Part shown: positions 137 through 9,437 of the stretch, piece after piece
Layout: each line of letters starts with the position of its first letter
How positions within the stretch are numbered: position 1 is the stretch's first letter
NCBI RefSeq assembly: GCF_025210595.1
Contig: NZ_JAOARH010000095.1
Coordinates: forward strand, 1 to 56,463
From: Winogradskyella sp.
GTDB lineage: Bacteria; Bacteroidota; Bacteroidia; Flavobacteriales; Flavobacteriaceae
Reading direction: 5' to 3'
Length of the DNA: 56,463 bases
Notes under the pieces: model-generated
The model's input: only the letters and a program-made list of their open reading frames with translations
Databases searched by the model: none
What the model was told of the DNA's origin: nothing
Position numbers and translations under genes: made by a program

Positions 137-514
137 CTTTTATAATAGAACATCGGCTAATATAACAATTCAAAACAGTATTATAAGTTTCTACCATTCC
201 CGCACAAGCAAAAACCTCTAGTTTATAATGCAGTAATATCAGTTTTAAGCCCTTGCCATCCTGAACTAGTCTCAGGATCTCATAATTAATTTCTTTTCAA
301 TAATAGATTAACTTACACTAAATTTTCGATTTCAAAATTGAGTGTGAGATAGCAACGGGTCTGAGCTTTTCTGAATTCAGAGTATTATTTTAATGTTTTA
401 TAATTTCATATTTGATATGGAGTAAAGATTAGGTTCTGATTTTTACTTGAAAATATTGTTTGTAATAGTCATAATTACTTCATTATTTTATAAATTTAAC
501 ATCTTAAAAATTAG
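137..514. other. Gene-free stretch with three palindromic elements
   Basis: No convincing reading frame lies between the left-edge gene and the cassette at 515. The stretch holds a dispersed 7-bp-arm palindrome at 258-278. It also has a 12-nt inverted repeat with one mismatch at 315-326/334-345 and a perfect 12-bp palindrome, TCTGAATTCAGA, at 370-381. The last two are placed where operators or processing hairpins of the downstream cassette could be, but nothing in the sequence proves this. No full TTG-N19-TAnnTTTG promoter is visible before 515; a TTTG at 459-462 followed by TATTTTA at 484-490 is the nearest match. Confidence 0.5.
258..278. repeat. Dispersed short palindrome, copy 1
   Basis: ATCCTGA (258-264) and TCAGGAT (272-278) form a perfect 7-bp inverted repeat around a 7-nt loop. 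Nearly the same sequence, including most of the loop (ACTAG) and the following CTCAT, recurs at 29665-29685. A shorter relative sits at 17611-17628. All three are intergenic, which fits a small REP-like repeat family. Confidence 0.6.
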
Positions 515-1384
515 ATGTTTATGAAAAGAAAAATAAAGTTTTATTCATTGAAACAAAAACAGGTTGGAAGAAGTTATACTTACGGTGTCGCTGAATCTTT
601 AAAAGGTGTGTTAAATTACATAAATACTTTAGATATAGAAGATAAAGCCTATACAATAGAGCGTAAAACATGTTTTATAAGTAATGTTAGTTTTGATGAG
701 GAAAACGATTTGTATAGAATAATTTTTAAGTCAGCTTCCTCAGGTTATAGGTCTGATTTAATAGATGTTAGAACATTGATTGAAAGACCTAACCCTAAAA
801 ATTTGACAGAGGGTGAGGGGGAAATGACTCATGCAATAATTAAATTTGAGAGTGACGACTGCCTCCTTCTTTTAGAAACTAATGGTAAAGGTGTTGGAAT
901 CAAGAAGATTGTTAATTATTTTAAATACATTTACAATAATCATAAGCAAGATTTAGGGGAAGATTTACCTAGCCTCCTATATAAAGAGTGGATTGTTGCT
1001 CATGAAAATCTTCAAGAAGTTTTAAATAAGTTAAATAGGATAAAAACGGCAAGTGTTTTTGTCGAAAAGAGCGTATTAGGAAGTGATACTTTCAATTTTT
1101 CTGGTAGAACTCAAAATGTAAAGGATGTAGTGGAGTTAAAAGTTTCAGCTGACTATAGAAAAGATATTAAAGCATTTGCTATTGAAACAATGAGTAAATT
1201 TTTAGCTGGAACTACAACTGTTGTTAATAAAATTCGAATTGAAGGGACAGACGAGAATAATGCGAATTCAATCATTGATACAGAGATATTGCAGAAGGTT
1301 GATTCATTGGTAGTAGAGGTTAATAATGCAACTGGAGAGGTCAGTAGTGTTGATATTTTGAATAAAATAGAAAATTTGTTATAA
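515..1384 (+). CDS. Uncharacterised soluble protein, first gene of a two-gene cassette
   Basis: This 289-residue protein has no signal peptide and no membrane segment, so it is probably cytoplasmic. I do not recognise a named domain with certainty. The N-terminal ~100 residues alternate basic and hydrophobic positions and look beta-rich. They lead into an acidic EGEGE segment (99-103), then a strand-helix region with LLLLETNGKGVG (about 117-128), a helical middle (130-180) and a C-terminal part (200-289). The arrangement vaguely recalls uncharacterised families found in anti-phage islands, such as DUF6731-type proteins, but this is memory and not a search. Two start codons compete, ATG 515 and ATG 521; the second gives MKRKIKFY and is equally plausible. 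The next gene begins 10 nt after its stop, so the two are very likely co-transcribed. Confidence 0.75.
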   Translation: MFMKRKIKFYSLKQKQVGRSYTYGVAESLKGVLNYINTLDIEDKAYTIERKTCFISNVSFDEENDLYRIIFKSASSGYRSDLIDVRTLIERPNPKNLTEGEGEMTHAIIKFESDDCLLLLETNGKGVGIKKIVNYFKYIYNNHKQDLGEDLPSLLYKEWIVAHENLQEVLNKLNRIKTASVFVEKSVLGSDTFNFSGRTQNVKDVVELKVSADYRKDIKAFAIETMSKFLAGTTTVVNKIRIEGTDENNANSIIDTEILQKVDSLVVEVNNATGEVSSVDILNKIENLL

Positions 1385-1394
1385 CGTAAATATA

Positions 1395-1919
1395 ATGTAT
1401 AGAGAATTCTTTATAATTCTTATTGACTTTTTTAAGAATATGAGATATAAAAATCTTGTGTTTGAAGTTGTTTTGCCTTTAATTTTCTCTGTTATAGGTG
1501 TTTATTTCCTGTCTAAAAATGTTTCCGACATAACTATTCTTGATGCTATTTTTAATTCTACGTCTAATACAATACTTTCTACTTTGAGTATTTTAGTTGG
1601 TTTTACATTAACATTAATTACAGTTATTATTTCTACTGATAAGTTGGCGAAAATTAAAGAGTACATGACTCATTATAAGATTGATGGTAAGCAGATAACT
1701 CTTTATAAATATTTGCTAATAAATTTATCATACACTGCTCTTATTGAATTTTTTCTAATATCATTCAATATCTTATTTATTTCATTCGGTCATTCATTCG
1801 CAATGACAACTATTTATTTATGCATGTTGTTTAATGCTTTTTTATGTGTGCACCTTCTCTTTATTTCAATAAGAAGTTTTACTGATTTATACAACATTAT
1901 TATTGGTACTTCCGATTAA
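1395..1919 (+). CDS. Small four-helix inner membrane protein, second gene of the cassette
   Basis: The 174-residue product has four predicted membrane segments, at about residues 21-40, 60-80, 104-131 and 135-158. A basic loop of about 23 residues (81-103, with KLAKIKEY and HYKIDGKQ) lies between helices 2 and 3. No enzymatic motif is visible. It starts 10 nt after the preceding soluble protein, and the downstream gene is on the opposite strand, so the cassette is closed. A soluble partner plus a four-helix membrane protein is the layout of several two-gene anti-phage systems (Kiwa KwaA/KwaB is one), in which the membrane protein acts at the envelope. I see no sequence similarity that would allow that name. 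The function is unknown. Confidence 0.75.
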   Translation: MYREFFIILIDFFKNMRYKNLVFEVVLPLIFSVIGVYFLSKNVSDITILDAIFNSTSNTILSTLSILVGFTLTLITVIISTDKLAKIKEYMTHYKIDGKQITLYKYLLINLSYTALIEFFLISFNILFISFGHSFAMTTIYLCMLFNAFLCVHLLFISIRSFTDLYNIIIGTSD

Positions 1920-4631: not shown

Positions 4632-5274
4632 ATGAAACGAATAGTATATCTATGTTTTATTGCTTTATTAGGTTCTTCCTGTTCAACATCAGATAATAAC
4701 GAAGGTCAAAATCTAGAGTCTAATTTTTATGCGCTTACCGTAGGTAATAAATGGGTCTATAAAAATTATAGGTATAATAGTTAATACGCAAAATTATGAT
4801 GATACTGGTGTGATTGATTCAATAAGCATCATTGGTACAGAAGTTATTAATGATAATACCTACTATAAGTTTAGACGTTTTACAACAGGAAACGAAAATA
4901 ACATTTCGTTATGCAACGCAAATGGAGAACATTTTGAACTACTGAGAGATTCTTTGGGGTATTTAGTCTGGGACGATGGTACAATTAAGTATGCTAATAA
5001 CGACTTTACTGCAATACCTAAAACCATAACAGATTGGGGAACTATTTATGACGAACTTATTGCTTTGGATAATGAGATTACAGTTGAAGCTGGTACATTT
5101 ATTAGTACCTATACGCAACGTTATGCTGTTTTGTCTAACGGTGAACAGGCTTCAGGTTTAGATCATTTTTACTATGCAGATGGTTTTGGACTTATCTATG
5201 ATACATCTTCTTTTGTGAGTCAGGATATTCCAGCTATTATTAGACGATTAGATTCTTACGAAATTCAAGATTAA
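4632..5274 (+). pseudogene. Lipoprotein gene broken by a one-base frameshift
   Basis: An ATG at 4632 opens a typical lipoprotein signal (hydrophobic core, then GSSC with the lipid-accepting Cys at residue 17) and reads to a TAA at 4782-4784 after 50 codons. The continuation, about 160 residues ending at 5274, is in the +1 frame. Deleting one T of the TT at 4781-4782 restores a single frame of 213 codons through NTQNYDDTGVIDSISIIG without any further stop. The restored protein would be a small secreted lipoprotein of unknown function, with the GNKWVY and GFGLIYD segments often seen in such flavobacterial proteins. The downstream part could also be read alone from a GTG at 4810, but it would lack an export signal. 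Either the gene is inactivated or the base is a sequencing error. Confidence 0.8.
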
Positions 5275-5368
5275 TTTTTAAATAGCATGTGTGAACACTG
5301 CTTAATGCTATATTGGGTGGAATTGATTTATGATTGTTGTTTATTGTATACTGTGAACGACCATTGAG

Positions 5369-5812
5369 TTATACTCCAAATTGTCTAAAATGATGGTCTA
5401 AATGTTTGTATTGCATTTGTCCCCATTGTTGTGCTGTAAAATACCCAAAGGCAGGGTGTAGATTCCATTCTGTTTTGTCTTTATGTGAATAGGCTTCCTG
5501 AATAAGTGCTTGTAATTTGGTTTTTTCAACTGTAAAATCTTTAGTGTCTTTTGTTTTTAGAAATTTAGCTGTAGGTAAACCTTTTTTCCATGGTTTGTTA
5601 TTATATAACGATTTTTTAAAAAACAATTTAGCAATCCAACTCGGTTTCATGTCATAATTGTTTTTTTCTAAAAGAATATTTAAAGGACCTTGGCAGTGCC
5701 AAACCATTTGACCAACATTCATTTTTCCCCAAATCGCAGTTGTACTTCCATTTAGTTTGTTAACGCGCTCCATAATTTCGTTATAAGCGTTTTCTTCAAA
5801 AATAGATTTCAT
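5369..5812 (-). CDS. DUF1569 family protein (DinB-like fold)
   Basis: The 147-residue protein fits DUF1569, a branch of the DinB/YfiT four-helix fold. It shows the family pattern WGKMNVGQMVWHCQ near residues 28-41, and a C-terminal HPAFGYFTAQQWGQMQYKHL block with further histidines (HLDHHFRQFG) that complete a putative metal site. Members are small cytoplasmic proteins, possibly thiol or metal-dependent transferases, but no reaction is established for DUF1569. It is transcribed away from radC, with about 60 bp between the two starts. Length is normal for the family. Confidence 0.85.
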   Translation of the reverse strand: MKSIFEENAYNEIMERVNKLNGSTTAIWGKMNVGQMVWHCQGPLNILLEKNNYDMKPSWIAKLFFKKSLYNNKPWKKGLPTAKFLKTKDTKDFTVEKTKLQALIQEAYSHKDKTEWNLHPAFGYFTAQQWGQMQYKHLDHHFRQFGV

Positions 5813-5873
5813 TTTGATTGATTTTAGTTGAATTATTTTGATGCTTCAAGTTACAATTTTTTATCTTTAGAGC

Positions 5874-6572
5874 ATGTCCGAGAATACAAACTCATTTTCT
5901 ATAAAGAACTGGTCGCAAGATGATCAGCCCAGAGAAAAATTACGAGATAAAGGAAAAGCTGTTCTTAGTGATGCAGAGCTGGTAGCAATTCTTATTGGAT
6001 CTGGCAGCAGAGAAGAAAGTGCTGTAGATTTATGCAAACGAATTTTAGCAAGTGTAGATCATAATCTTAATGCTTTAGGGAAATTATCTATTAAACAATT
6101 AATGGAATTTAAAGGAATTGGGGAAGCCAAAGCAATTACTATTGCTGCTGCTTTAGAGCTAGGAAGAAGAAGACGATTAGAAGAAACTTTAGAGTTGACT
6201 AAAATAACATCGAGCCGTTCTGTATTTGATATGATGCAACCTGTTTTAGGTGAACTGCCTCACGAAGAATTTTGGATTTTGTACCTTAATAATTCTAACA
6301 AAGTGCTCCGTAAAAATCAATTAAGTAAAGGAGGTATTACAGGTACCTTAGTTGATGTAAGATTAGTTCTTAAAACGGCTTTAGAAGTTGGTGCAACAGC
6401 TTTAATTTTGTGTCATAATCATCCCTCAGGGACTTTAAAACCTAGTGAAGCAGATAAAGCAATTACAAAGAAGTTAAAATTAGCTGCCCAAAGTTTAGAT
6501 ATAAAAGTATTAGATCATTTAATAGTTACTGAGAAAATGTATTTTAGTTTTGCTGATGAAGGTATTCTGTAA
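5874..6572 (+). CDS. radC: RadC family JAB/MPN-domain protein
   Basis: The 232-residue protein has the RadC architecture: an N-terminal helix-hairpin-helix-like part (GIGEAKAITIAAALELGRR, 81-99) and a C-terminal JAB/MPN metalloprotease-like domain. The zinc motif is intact: Glu131/132, HNHPSG at 181-186 and Asp194 in SEAD. The name as a DNA repair protein is historical; the real activity is unproven. TATCTTTA, close to the -7 consensus, ends 4 nt before the ATG, the same distance as the boxes before rarA, rlmB and pyrE, so the mRNA may be leaderless. The chosen ATG gives the usual N-terminus (IKNWSQDDQPREKL). Confidence 0.95.
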   Translation: MSENTNSFSIKNWSQDDQPREKLRDKGKAVLSDAELVAILIGSGSREESAVDLCKRILASVDHNLNALGKLSIKQLMEFKGIGEAKAITIAAALELGRRRRLEETLELTKITSSRSVFDMMQPVLGELPHEEFWILYLNNSNKVLRKNQLSKGGITGTLVDVRLVLKTALEVGATALILCHNHPSGTLKPSEADKAITKKLKLAAQSLDIKVLDHLIVTEKMYFSFADEGIL

Positions 6573-6602
6573 GAATGTCAAAAAAATCAAATCATAAACA
6601 CC

Positions 6603-6642
6603 AAATTCCAATTTCCCATAAAGCGATTTGAAATTTGGATTT
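6603..6642. repeat. Imperfect inverted repeat between radC and the deacetylase-like gene
   Basis: AAATTCCAATTTC at 603-615 of this kilobase and GAAATTTGGATTT at 630-642 pair in 11 of 13 positions around a 14-nt loop. It follows radC and ends shortly before the next start codon. It resembles the A+T-rich intergenic hairpins seen elsewhere in the window (for example 26169, 44429, 49078) and may act as a weak terminator for radC. Confidence 0.4.
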
Positions 6643-6655
6643 TAGAAATTGAAAA

Positions 6656-7960
6656 TTGAACCATTTGCTTTTAGTTTATACACATAAAATTACACCACGT
6701 CTTAAGTTTACCTTTAAGCATATCTGTAAGCGTATTTTAGGTTTAGAGGTAAAGTTTACATCAAAAGTTGAAGATTTCATTGCGCACAATAGTCTTAAGA
6801 TGTCTTATACTAGGCAGCCTTTAAGTAGTGAGTTGTTTGTAAGAAGCCATGCCTTATTGTTTGAGCAAGGTTTATCTGATCTAGACATTAATGTGCATTC
6901 TTGGGATAATACTAAAGGCTTTTTTGTAACAGGTGAGCGTAGTGATTTGCCATTCGATGTTTTTGCAGCATCTTTTTACCTGCTAAGTCGTTATGAGGAA
7001 TATTTGCCACATGTTAAAGATGAGTTTGGTCGTTTTATGGCCAAAGAGAGTTTGGCATATAAACATAAGTTTTTAAATCAGCCAGTAGTAGATATTTGGG
7101 CATACAAACTTAGAGGGGTTTTAAAGGAGCGTTTCCCAGAATTTTTATTTCCAGAAAGAACCTATAGCGTGCAACCAGTTATAGATGTGCCAATGGCATA
7201 CTATTTTAGAAAAAAGGGATTGTTACGAACAATTGGAGGTACAATATCAGATATTGGTAGATTTAAGTTTAAGCAATTGTACCAGCGTTATTCAGTGTTA
7301 ATGGGGTTTAAACGCGATCCTTATGATACGTTTAAATGGATTATTACCAAGCAAAAACAGTGCGATTTTAAGTTTATGGTTCTGTTTTTAATTGGAGATT
7401 ATTCAACTTACGATAAAAACCTCAGCACAAACAAAAAGGAATTTGTATCGCTTATAAAATCTATAGCAGATTATTGCGACGTTGGCATAAAGGTATCTTA
7501 TTTTGCTTTAGATGATATTTCTATTTTAAAGAAAGAAAAGTTGAAAATGGAAGCTATTGTTAATAGAGAATTAAATGCTGTTAGGCATTCATTTTCTAAG
7601 TTAAATCTTCCGAAATCTTATAGAAATTTAATTGAGTTAGAAGTTAATAGAGACTTTACAATGGGTTATATTGATACGCTTGGTTTTAGAGCAGGTACAT
7701 GTACGCCATTTCAGTTTTATGATTTAGATTATGAGGTGCAAACACCGTTGCAGATTAATCCTTATCAATGTTTAGATAATGGACTTTTAAAGTATCAATC
7801 AGAGTTAGACAAAAAAGAACATTTGCAAAAACTTATTGACGAAATAAAAGCTGTAAATGGTAGATTTGTTCCAATATTTCATAATTATGCATTTAGTGAT
7901 TTAGACCTTTGGAAAGGATATAGATCGCTTTTTAATTTAATATTAGAATCGGTAGAATGA
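6656..7960 (+). CDS. Polysaccharide-deacetylase-like protein with altered metal motifs
   Basis: The protein (434 residues from TTG 6656, 431 from TTG 6665) belongs to a long two-domain Bacteroidetes family: an N-terminal region of about 170 residues (LLVYTHKITPRLKF; ASFYLLSRYEEYLP) and a C-terminal NodB-like region ending in FRAGTCTPFQFYDL (344-357). As I recall the family, the NodB part carries a DxD(N) motif and an HP motif that bind metal. Here the corresponding places read VIDVPMAY (176-182) and KVSY (279-282), so one Asp and the His appear to be missing. It may be an inactive or strongly diverged member. There is no ATG; TTG 6665 gives the usual MLLVYTHKITPR start and is preferred. Its stop overlaps the next gene by 4 nt (ATGA), implying coupled translation. 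Confidence 0.8.
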   Translation: MNHLLLVYTHKITPRLKFTFKHICKRILGLEVKFTSKVEDFIAHNSLKMSYTRQPLSSELFVRSHALLFEQGLSDLDINVHSWDNTKGFFVTGERSDLPFDVFAASFYLLSRYEEYLPHVKDEFGRFMAKESLAYKHKFLNQPVVDIWAYKLRGVLKERFPEFLFPERTYSVQPVIDVPMAYYFRKKGLLRTIGGTISDIGRFKFKQLYQRYSVLMGFKRDPYDTFKWIITKQKQCDFKFMVLFLIGDYSTYDKNLSTNKKEFVSLIKSIADYCDVGIKVSYFALDDISILKKEKLKMEAIVNRELNAVRHSFSKLNLPKSYRNLIELEVNRDFTMGYIDTLGFRAGTCTPFQFYDLDYEVQTPLQINPYQCLDNGLLKYQSELDKKEHLQKLIDEIKAVNGRFVPIFHNYAFSDLDLWKGYRSLFNLILESVE

Positions 7961-8643
7961 AAGATAGAATAAAGCATGTGTTTTTTGATTTAGATCACAC
8001 CCTTTGGGATTTTGATAAAAACTCTGGTCTAACATTTAAAAAAATATTCAGCTTAAATAATATTGAAGTAGAGCTTCAAAGTTTTTTAGATGTTTATGAG
8101 CCAATAAACCTTAAGTATTGGAAGCTGTATAGAGAAGAACAAATCTCTAAATCAGCCTTACGTTATGGCAGGTTAAAAGATGCGTTTAATGCAATACACG
8201 TAGATGTAGATGACACAATGATTAATCATTTGTCTGTTGCTTATATAGATTATCTCACAACGTTTAATCACTTGTTTGATGGAACAATAGAAATCCTGAA
8301 TTATTTAAGTGATAAATACCAATTACATATTATTACCAATGGGTTTGAAGAAGCTCAAGAACGTAAAATGAATAATGCCAATATTAAAGGGTATTTTGAA
8401 ACCATTACTAATTCTGAAATGGTTGGTGTAAAAAAGCCTAATCCAAAGATTTTTAATTTTGCATTGAATGCAGCTAATGCAAGTGCAGCCGAAAGTATAA
8501 TGATAGGTGATAGTTTAGAAGCCGACATACAAGGTGCTGATAATATTGGTATGGAAACTATTTATTTTGATTGTAGAGGGTTAAACAATTCCAATGGATT
8601 TAAAAGAATAACGGATTTAAAATCAATAGAAAACTATCTTTAA
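7957..8643 (+). CDS. YjjG-like HAD phosphatase (noncanonical pyrimidine nucleotidase)
   Basis: The 228-residue HAD-superfamily enzyme has all four motifs: DLDHTLWDF near residue 11 (nucleophile and acid Asp), the motif II Thr in ITNGF near 120, the Lys in VKKPNP near 150, and the acidic GDSLEADIQGA near 180. The TLWDFDKNS extension and the C1-type helical cap match the YjjG/YfnB group, which dephosphorylates modified or ordinary pyrimidine nucleotides in the cytosol. It overlaps the upstream deacetylase-like gene by 4 nt and is followed after 8 nt by a secreted protein gene, so the three form one operon. Confidence 0.9.
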   Translation: MKDRIKHVFFDLDHTLWDFDKNSGLTFKKIFSLNNIEVELQSFLDVYEPINLKYWKLYREEQISKSALRYGRLKDAFNAIHVDVDDTMINHLSVAYIDYLTTFNHLFDGTIEILNYLSDKYQLHIITNGFEEAQERKMNNANIKGYFETITNSEMVGVKKPNPKIFNFALNAANASAAESIMIGDSLEADIQGADNIGMETIYFDCRGLNNSNGFKRITDLKSIENYL

Positions 8644-8651
8644 AAGAACAT

Positions 8652-9437
8652 ATGATGAACAAGAAAATAGCAATCGTAATACTTTTTATAGGTGTTGGAC
8701 TTAGCGCACTGGCACAGAGGGATATTAACAACTATAAATATGTGATAATACCTTTAAAATATGATTTTATTAGTGAAAATGATCAGTATAGGCTTAATAC
8801 TTTAACCAGATATTTATTTAAGCAAGAGGGCTTTATTGCTCTATTTGATGAAGAAAAATTTCCTGAAGAGTTAAATAATGATAATTGCAAGGCGCTTTAT
8901 GCTAATGTTAACAAAATTAAGGGCGGTTTGTTTGCTACTAAACTAGAAATAGTCCTTAGTAATTGTTTTGGGAAGGAAGTGTATAAAACGGAAATAGGCT
9001 CAAGTAGAGAAAAAGACTATAAAAAAGCGTATAATGAAGCATTGAAAAACGCGTTTAAATCTATAGAAGAGTTAGAATATAAGTATGAAGCAGTTGAAGT
9101 AAAACCTATAGAAAAGAAAGTTGTAAAAAAAGATATTGTAGAAGTAAGTGATGATGTAAAACCAAAGAGTATTGAGAAAAAAAAGGAAGCAAAGACCAAT
9201 ACTTTAAATAATGTTAAGAAGGATCCTTATAAAGCTCAACTGTTTGGTGGTTTAAACTATAAGTTAATGAATAATAAAGGAGAGCTTGTTTATGTTCTAT
9301 TATATTCAGGAAAAGAAAATGTATATATAGTTAAAGGAGTAGATGCGTTAGTTTATAAATTAAATAATAATTGGGTGTTAGCTAAAAGTACTGATAACAA
9401 AATAGAAATAGAATCTATAGAGATTAAATTTGATTAA
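8652..9437 (+). CDS. Secreted or periplasmic protein of unknown function
   Basis: The 261-residue product begins with a signal peptide (KKIAIVILFIGVGL, likely cut after ALA, residue 21). A first domain follows with the start INNYKYVIIPLKYDF, then a low-complexity Lys/Glu/Val linker around residues 145-185. A C-terminal domain (NYKLMNNKGELVYVLLYSG) ends at 261. I recognise the general type from Flavobacteriaceae, where it follows the YjjG-like gene, but know no function. Two ATGs are adjacent, at 8652 and 8655, and either is possible. Its stop overlaps the stop of the convergent rarA by 4 nt, so no terminator separates them. Confidence 0.8.
   Translation: MMNKKIAIVILFIGVGLSALAQRDINNYKYVIIPLKYDFISENDQYRLNTLTRYLFKQEGFIALFDEEKFPEELNNDNCKALYANVNKIKGGLFATKLEIVLSNCFGKEVYKTEIGSSREKDYKKAYNEALKNAFKSIEELEYKYEAVEVKPIEKKVVKKDIVEVSDDVKPKSIEKKKEAKTNTLNNVKKDPYKAQLFGGLNYKLMNNKGELVYVLLYSGKENVYIVKGVDALVYKLNNNWVLAKSTDNKIEIESIEIKFD

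Follow-up and report, generated by a model that had tools for sequence, protein, structure and literature searches.

A tightly spaced gene pair of Winogradskyella as a probable divergent RexAB-like abortive-infection system

What do two tightly spaced genes near one end of a Winogradskyella sp. contig encode, and do they belong to phage defence? The window, the whole stretch of DNA analysed here, covers positions 1 to 56,463 of contig NZ_JAOARH010000095.1 (56,463 nucleotides, nt). Its genes A and B form a cassette whose products were described in an initial annotation, made from the sequence alone, as a soluble and a four-helix membrane protein, a plan of sensor and effector recalling two-gene phage-defence systems. 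Since protein A has a predicted RexA fold, protein B is weakly RexB-like, the genes stand in rexA–rexB order, and their relatives co-occur and lie in phages, on a plasmid or downstream of type III restriction genes, we read the cassette as a divergent RexAB-like abortive-infection system, with a probability of roughly 0.72. The fold, the RexB-like partner and the pairing in 35 of 36 records all speak for the sensor–effector plan, with a defence role suggested by homology.

Both open reading frames (ORFs) lie where they had been annotated, are open throughout and are separated by 10 nt (1385–1394). One RexAB-type trait is a soluble protein with a RexA fold. Hydropathy found no membrane segment in A, as annotated, and a fold search with its predicted structure assigned it the RexA fold at about 12–14% identity to RexA. 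The other trait, an adjacent four-helix membrane protein, is seen in B, for which hydropathy gave four membrane segments and an AlphaFold model (mean predicted local distance difference test score, 83.4) showed long helices at residues 18–42, 46–80, 103–134 and 137–170, in agreement with the annotation. The short basic loop described between helices 2 and 3 carries five Lys/Arg and three Asp/Glu residues, and this positive charge suggests that the loop is cytoplasmic. Window B matched phrog_4613, a family of phage proteins with no assigned function, over residues 1–167 of 174 (E 2.6e-11).

Profile–profile comparison pointed to a weak similarity of B to RexB, with p values of 0.0019 in local and 0.0011 in global mode (0/400 shuffles in each mode); the start of the B loop falls within the best-matching stretch. 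Controls were column and block shuffles, with 0/100 each in the first run and 0/200 each in the final run. A rotated-profile control was invalid because rotation keeps most of the match, and 71/100 rotations reached the local B score. Small early profiles had given p values of 0.0024 (A8 set) and 0.15 (A3 set) for A against RexA and of 0.034 and 0.033, respectively, for B against RexB; support for both proteins rose once both profile sides were deepened. The A and B profiles excluded close relatives or copies (locus records L013, L015–L018, L021, L023, L024, L067–L069, L071 and L072), the broken A of L022 with its B, the cut A of L005, and L003, which is the same place as L011. The RexA profile was built without the copies L040–L049 and L054, and the RexB profile had nine rows (none was found for L052).

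Several results weigh against this assignment. The local B–RexB score of 26.1 exceeded the best block shuffle (25.3) by a thin margin, and in clade subsets (global mode) the B–RexB comparison was mixed (p 0.0026, 0.92 and 0.011), while A found no support against RexA (p 0.31, 0.92 and 0.81). The confidence of the A model was middling, and its overlay on RexA gave a root-mean-square deviation of 10.1 Å and a TM-score of 0.28; a different angle between two domains might explain this deviation. Fold searches with B returned only generic helical bundles in PDB and nothing at E 0.001 in BFVD, although a family missing from such lists is not thereby excluded; an uncharacterised 165-residue Sbash protein at rank 13 was not significant (E 4.1). 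Neither window protein matched the curated RexA and RexB models of Pfam and PADLOC, whereas lambda's own RexA and RexB do match the PADLOC models. A DUF4747 motif is reported in Sbash gp30 and in RexA (PMC6426596), and no match to it appeared in 23 A rows up to E 1 in Pfam. The scan for defence families covered A, B and Imm53, and the other genes of the window look ordinary and chromosomal by eye.

The annotated lack of a recognised domain in A held, both proteins having Pfam matches below cut-offs only and none in NCBIfam or PADLOC. DUF6731 and DUF4747, considered as candidate domains for A, were absent from its Pfam scans. We judged as chance the weak matches of A to the Pfam families T7 terminase RNaseH-like (0.011) and FecR_C (0.029), those of A rows to TLP1_add_C (6.2e-4 in 2/23) and Forkhead (5/23), those of B rows to LmuB (3e-4 in 4/23), and that of the L030 B to the PADLOC '2TM Effector' (0.0011). 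Matches of phrog_17119 to lambda RexB (0.034) and to window B (0.87) were too weak to be informative. A genome search with PF15969 gave zero matches, control genomes included, and neither the A nor the B profile found anything relevant among PDB sequences.

Relatives of A are sporadic. A was present in 2/299 genomes of the family (Flavobacteriaceae) in a single-sequence search and in 3/345 genomes of the class with a four-row profile, the window's own genome being counted in both. The B family occurred in 2/296 genomes of the phylum, own genome included, both of which carry A; these 296 may or may not include G200 and G404, two genomes in which A is likewise present. In a four-row scan of GTDB 220 with one genome per species, 23 A loci were found, 6 in Bacteroidota and 17 in Clostridia-group records or 'Bacterium D16' strains. 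The pair also occurs in Roseburia phage Jekyll, in Anaerostipes phages AC844P1–P3 (A in all three, the pair checked in one), in the IMG/VR contigs L038, L039, L065, L066, L067, L068 and L070, and on a Monoglobus plasmid (Clostridia).

The initial annotation had asked whether homologues always co-occur. Of the 36 other records, 35 have B directly 3' of A in the same orientation; the remaining one, L005, ends inside A. These 36 records correspond to 37 locus rows, L003 and L011 (Pontimicrobium aquaticum) being one place, and several are near-copies. The observation goes beyond chance, A and B being conserved as a pair at about 16–35% identity to the window proteins. Pairwise distances of A and B were correlated over 25 pairs (r 0.97, rank 0.75; 0/2000 label permutations), a correlation that shared descent alone would also give and that does not tell co-evolution apart from it. 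Neither an unlinked single homologue in a housekeeping place nor a match to a metabolic family, the outcomes named in advance as refuting, appeared in the searches made. Surroundings of individual copies vary. In Polaribacter marinus (L009:1467–2498), a DUF4062 protein (E 6e-32), of a type possibly linked with defence, stands just 5' of the pair. Three same-strand ORFs follow the pair in Flavobacterium pectinovorum (L007:7452–10351), the last with a RES domain (PF08808, 9.1e-15) and the other two with no Pfam match. In L031 (3–977 and 2540–3520), from a genome of the same class, the pair lies between mobilisation-like and nucleoid-associated-like genes, identified by eye only.

A link with known defence genes, which the initial annotation had proposed to look for, was found in one gut-Clostridia group (L005 and L012–L028). 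In 17 of its 18 records, a type III restriction gene (res), 78–100% identical to that of L012, ends shortly 5' of A; the 18th, L023, has just 266 bases 5' of A. The modification gene (mod) precedes res in 15 of these 17, and the contig starts inside res in L013 and L017. The order is mod–res–A–B (for example, L012:1914–7433), with A and B often overlapping by 4 nt. In L012, mod matched N6_N4_Mtase (6e-32) and res matched ResIII (1.3e-18); in the other records both genes were assigned by similarity to L012 only, and the best mod match was often part-length. The mod gene is in pieces in L018, where B is intact, and in L022. These records are related and thus do not represent independent events, and one of them, L005, is a faecal scaffold that carries no annotation and bears the label bacteriophage. 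No match to the L012 mod or res was found in the stretches around the pairs of the Monoglobus plasmid, the phages or the Bacteroidota loci, and in a title-level literature search no listed title dealt with RexA/RexB together with type III restriction or flavobacteria, or with RexA in Roseburia phage. As a separate observation, A is split into two ORFs in L022 (5735–6720) with B intact, which makes this a naturally occurring copy that lacks a complete A. We tentatively suggest, as a possibility that we hold to be less likely than its alternatives taken together, that a RexAB-like branch left prophages for chromosomes and, in gut Clostridia, became a built-in fail-safe of a type III mod–res–rexA-like–rexB-like operon, in which restriction would be the first line and, should it fail, the RexA-like sensor would shut the cell down, possibly in response to Res or to replicating DNA that has escaped restriction.

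The restriction link also bears on a regulatory explanation, in which the pair would serve mainly in, for example, a prophage switch, with phage exclusion as a side effect. Lambda RexA is reported to tip the CI–Cro switch, and its DNA binding to be uncorrelated with T4rII exclusion (PMC11077077); in addition, a gene resembling a helix-turn-helix regulator by eye stands about 1.5 kb away from one phage-borne pair, L038. However, no phage gene was seen by eye in the window, and within the available stretches the copies that follow type III restriction genes are not part of a phage immunity region, so that we regard a mainly regulatory role as unlikely.

How, then, would a divergent RexAB-like system act? 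A would sense phage replication or a phage protein, acting as a dimer that probably binds DNA. Once triggered, it may dock on the putative cytoplasmic loop of B between helices 2 and 3, whereupon B, probably as an oligomer, would open a channel or damage the inner membrane, stopping growth and aborting the infection. The sensing, the A–B contact, the channel and the defence role are what we infer; fold, pairing and gene order were computed. For lambda, Pseudomonas putida, Sbash and CarolAnn, activation of a RexB-like membrane protein by its RexA-like partner has been reported or proposed, with the RexB-like protein depolarising or damaging the membrane (PMC12894663), and in Sbash gp31 each of two substitutions within the central cytoplasmic region is reported to have impaired defence (PMC6426596). 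The positively charged loop of B sits at the place corresponding to that region. By analogy, the simplest reading is that the same circuit operates here, A sensing and contacting the loop and B arresting the cell. An arrangement as in Butters, where A is the effector and B restrains it at the membrane, has a precedent in the gp30/gp31 pair of that phage as reported in PMC12894663, but for P. putida, CarolAnn and Sbash the same paper describes B as the effector, and window A has no Pfam domain above cut-off, its relatives giving scattered weak matches only; we consider this variant improbable.

The likeness to lambda RexA–RexB lies in gene order, tight spacing, similar sizes (279 and 144 residues), the predicted RexA fold and, for RexB, four helices with a central region between helices 2 and 3. 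Unlike in lambda, no CI gene was seen next to the pair in the window, B exceeds RexB by 30 residues, and the low identity of A and the unmatched curated models set the pair apart. P. putida PP_5643–PP_5644 (RexABpp) is a demonstrated defence pair of a soluble RexA-like protein (by HHpred and structure) and a four-helix membrane protein (PMC12894663); it differs in being prophage-borne, and we liken it to the window pair by description rather than by sequence. The same holds for Sbash gp30–gp31 and CarolAnn gp44–gp43, each a RexA-like with a RexB-like protein (PMC6426596, PMC12894663), of which gp31 is reported to have four membrane segments, as B does, and an essential central cytoplasmic region (PMC6426596); these, however, belong to actinobacteriophages (a Mycobacteriophage and a Gordonia phage, respectively), and their RexA-like proteins have 370–372 residues (PMC11077077). 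Relatives of A matched phrog_4672 (17/23 A rows, best 1.2e-21), the counterpart of the phrog_4613 match of window B, although PHROGs assigns neither family a function and window A was not listed for phrog_4672 up to E 1, its best PHROG being phrog_10865 (0.0012). The PADLOC candidate pair PDC-M53A/B was matched weakly by 5/23 A rows (PDC-M53A, best 3.1e-5), by the L031 A (1.4e-5) and by the L030 B (PDC-M53B, 0.0023), but not by window A or B. We found no paper naming the PDC-M53 pair, and PDC-M53A occurred in 0/199 genomes and in no control genome, a search that says little.

The surroundings of the window copy (Table 1) agree in part with the initial annotation. Opposite-strand genes border the cassette on both sides: 5', a minus-strand ORF whose first 45 codons lie at 2–136 before it runs off the contig, and 3', the annotated immunity gene, an Imm53 gene (1986–2288; PF15580, E 1.3e-27), also on the minus strand. 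The bordering palindromes are weaker than described, the 5' pair being present and the 3' side holding only an overlapping 11-nt palindrome of 82% complementarity. A terminator scan of 1–2600 returned none. No plus-strand ORF of at least 60 codons lies in the 514 bases 5' of A, so no CI repressor gene is there within the contig.

Table 1. Features of the gene pair and its 5' border in the window
Feature	Position	Strand	Basis
Gene A, soluble protein, predicted RexA-like, 289 aa (amino acids)	515..1384	+	ORF; alternative start at in-frame ATG 521
Gene B, 174-aa membrane protein with four helices, weakly RexB-like	1395..1919	+	ORF, four helices, phrog_4613, RexB profile
Basic loop of B joining helices 2 and 3, residues 81–102	coding 1635..1700	+	Model, charge
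Inverted repeat 5' of A, 18-nt arms, 83% complementary	309..351		Repeat scan

Imm53 had been taken to favour a defence role. In G157, a genome of the same genus without A, Imm53 is 86% and the adjoining large gene 68% identical, and these two and the genes matching window 4810–9437 keep the window's order with a few extra ORFs; on the other side of its Imm53 are different genes and no cassette. This comparison covers the Imm53 side, as the window contig ends on the other. Imm53 therefore belongs to a gene order common to the genus, and it is the cassette that varies, so that the neighbouring immunity gene lends the defence reading no support, and we rejected Imm53 as a part of the cassette. 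The rest of the window looks chromosomal by eye, including a ribosomal-protein cluster. Such ordinary neighbours, together with a defence role that itself rests on homology, would suit a pair with a non-defence membrane function in stress or transport; the sporadic occurrence of A, its carriage by phages and a plasmid, and the restriction genes in front of it in nearly all records of one group make this very unlikely. A Kiwa-type system, which likewise combines a soluble protein with a small membrane protein (KwaB and KwaA), has a negligible probability, given p values of 0.74 for A against KwaB and 0.21 for B against KwaA (five of six KwaA rows, L059 excluded; 0.62 and 0.65, respectively, in another run), no match to the KwaB Pfam model (PF16162) in window A or the window's genome, a reversed gene order (six KwaB loci of the same class have a membrane ORF with two to three hydropathy segments directly 5') and a fold search of A that gave RexA, not KwaB.

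A 2026 paper counts five RexAB-like systems described so far and calls the activation of lambda RexAB still unexplained about 70 years after its discovery (PMC12894663). The family to which the window pair belongs is a divergent one in Bacteroidota and Clostridia; it keeps the rexA–rexB order, a partner with four helices and, by prediction, the fold of RexA, yet matches none of the curated models for the lambda proteins. Represented by about three dozen records, including several near-duplicates, and recurrently linked with type III restriction, this probable RexAB-like branch offers material for finding the trigger and the A–B contact, and it would let annotation tools detect pairs that are now missed.
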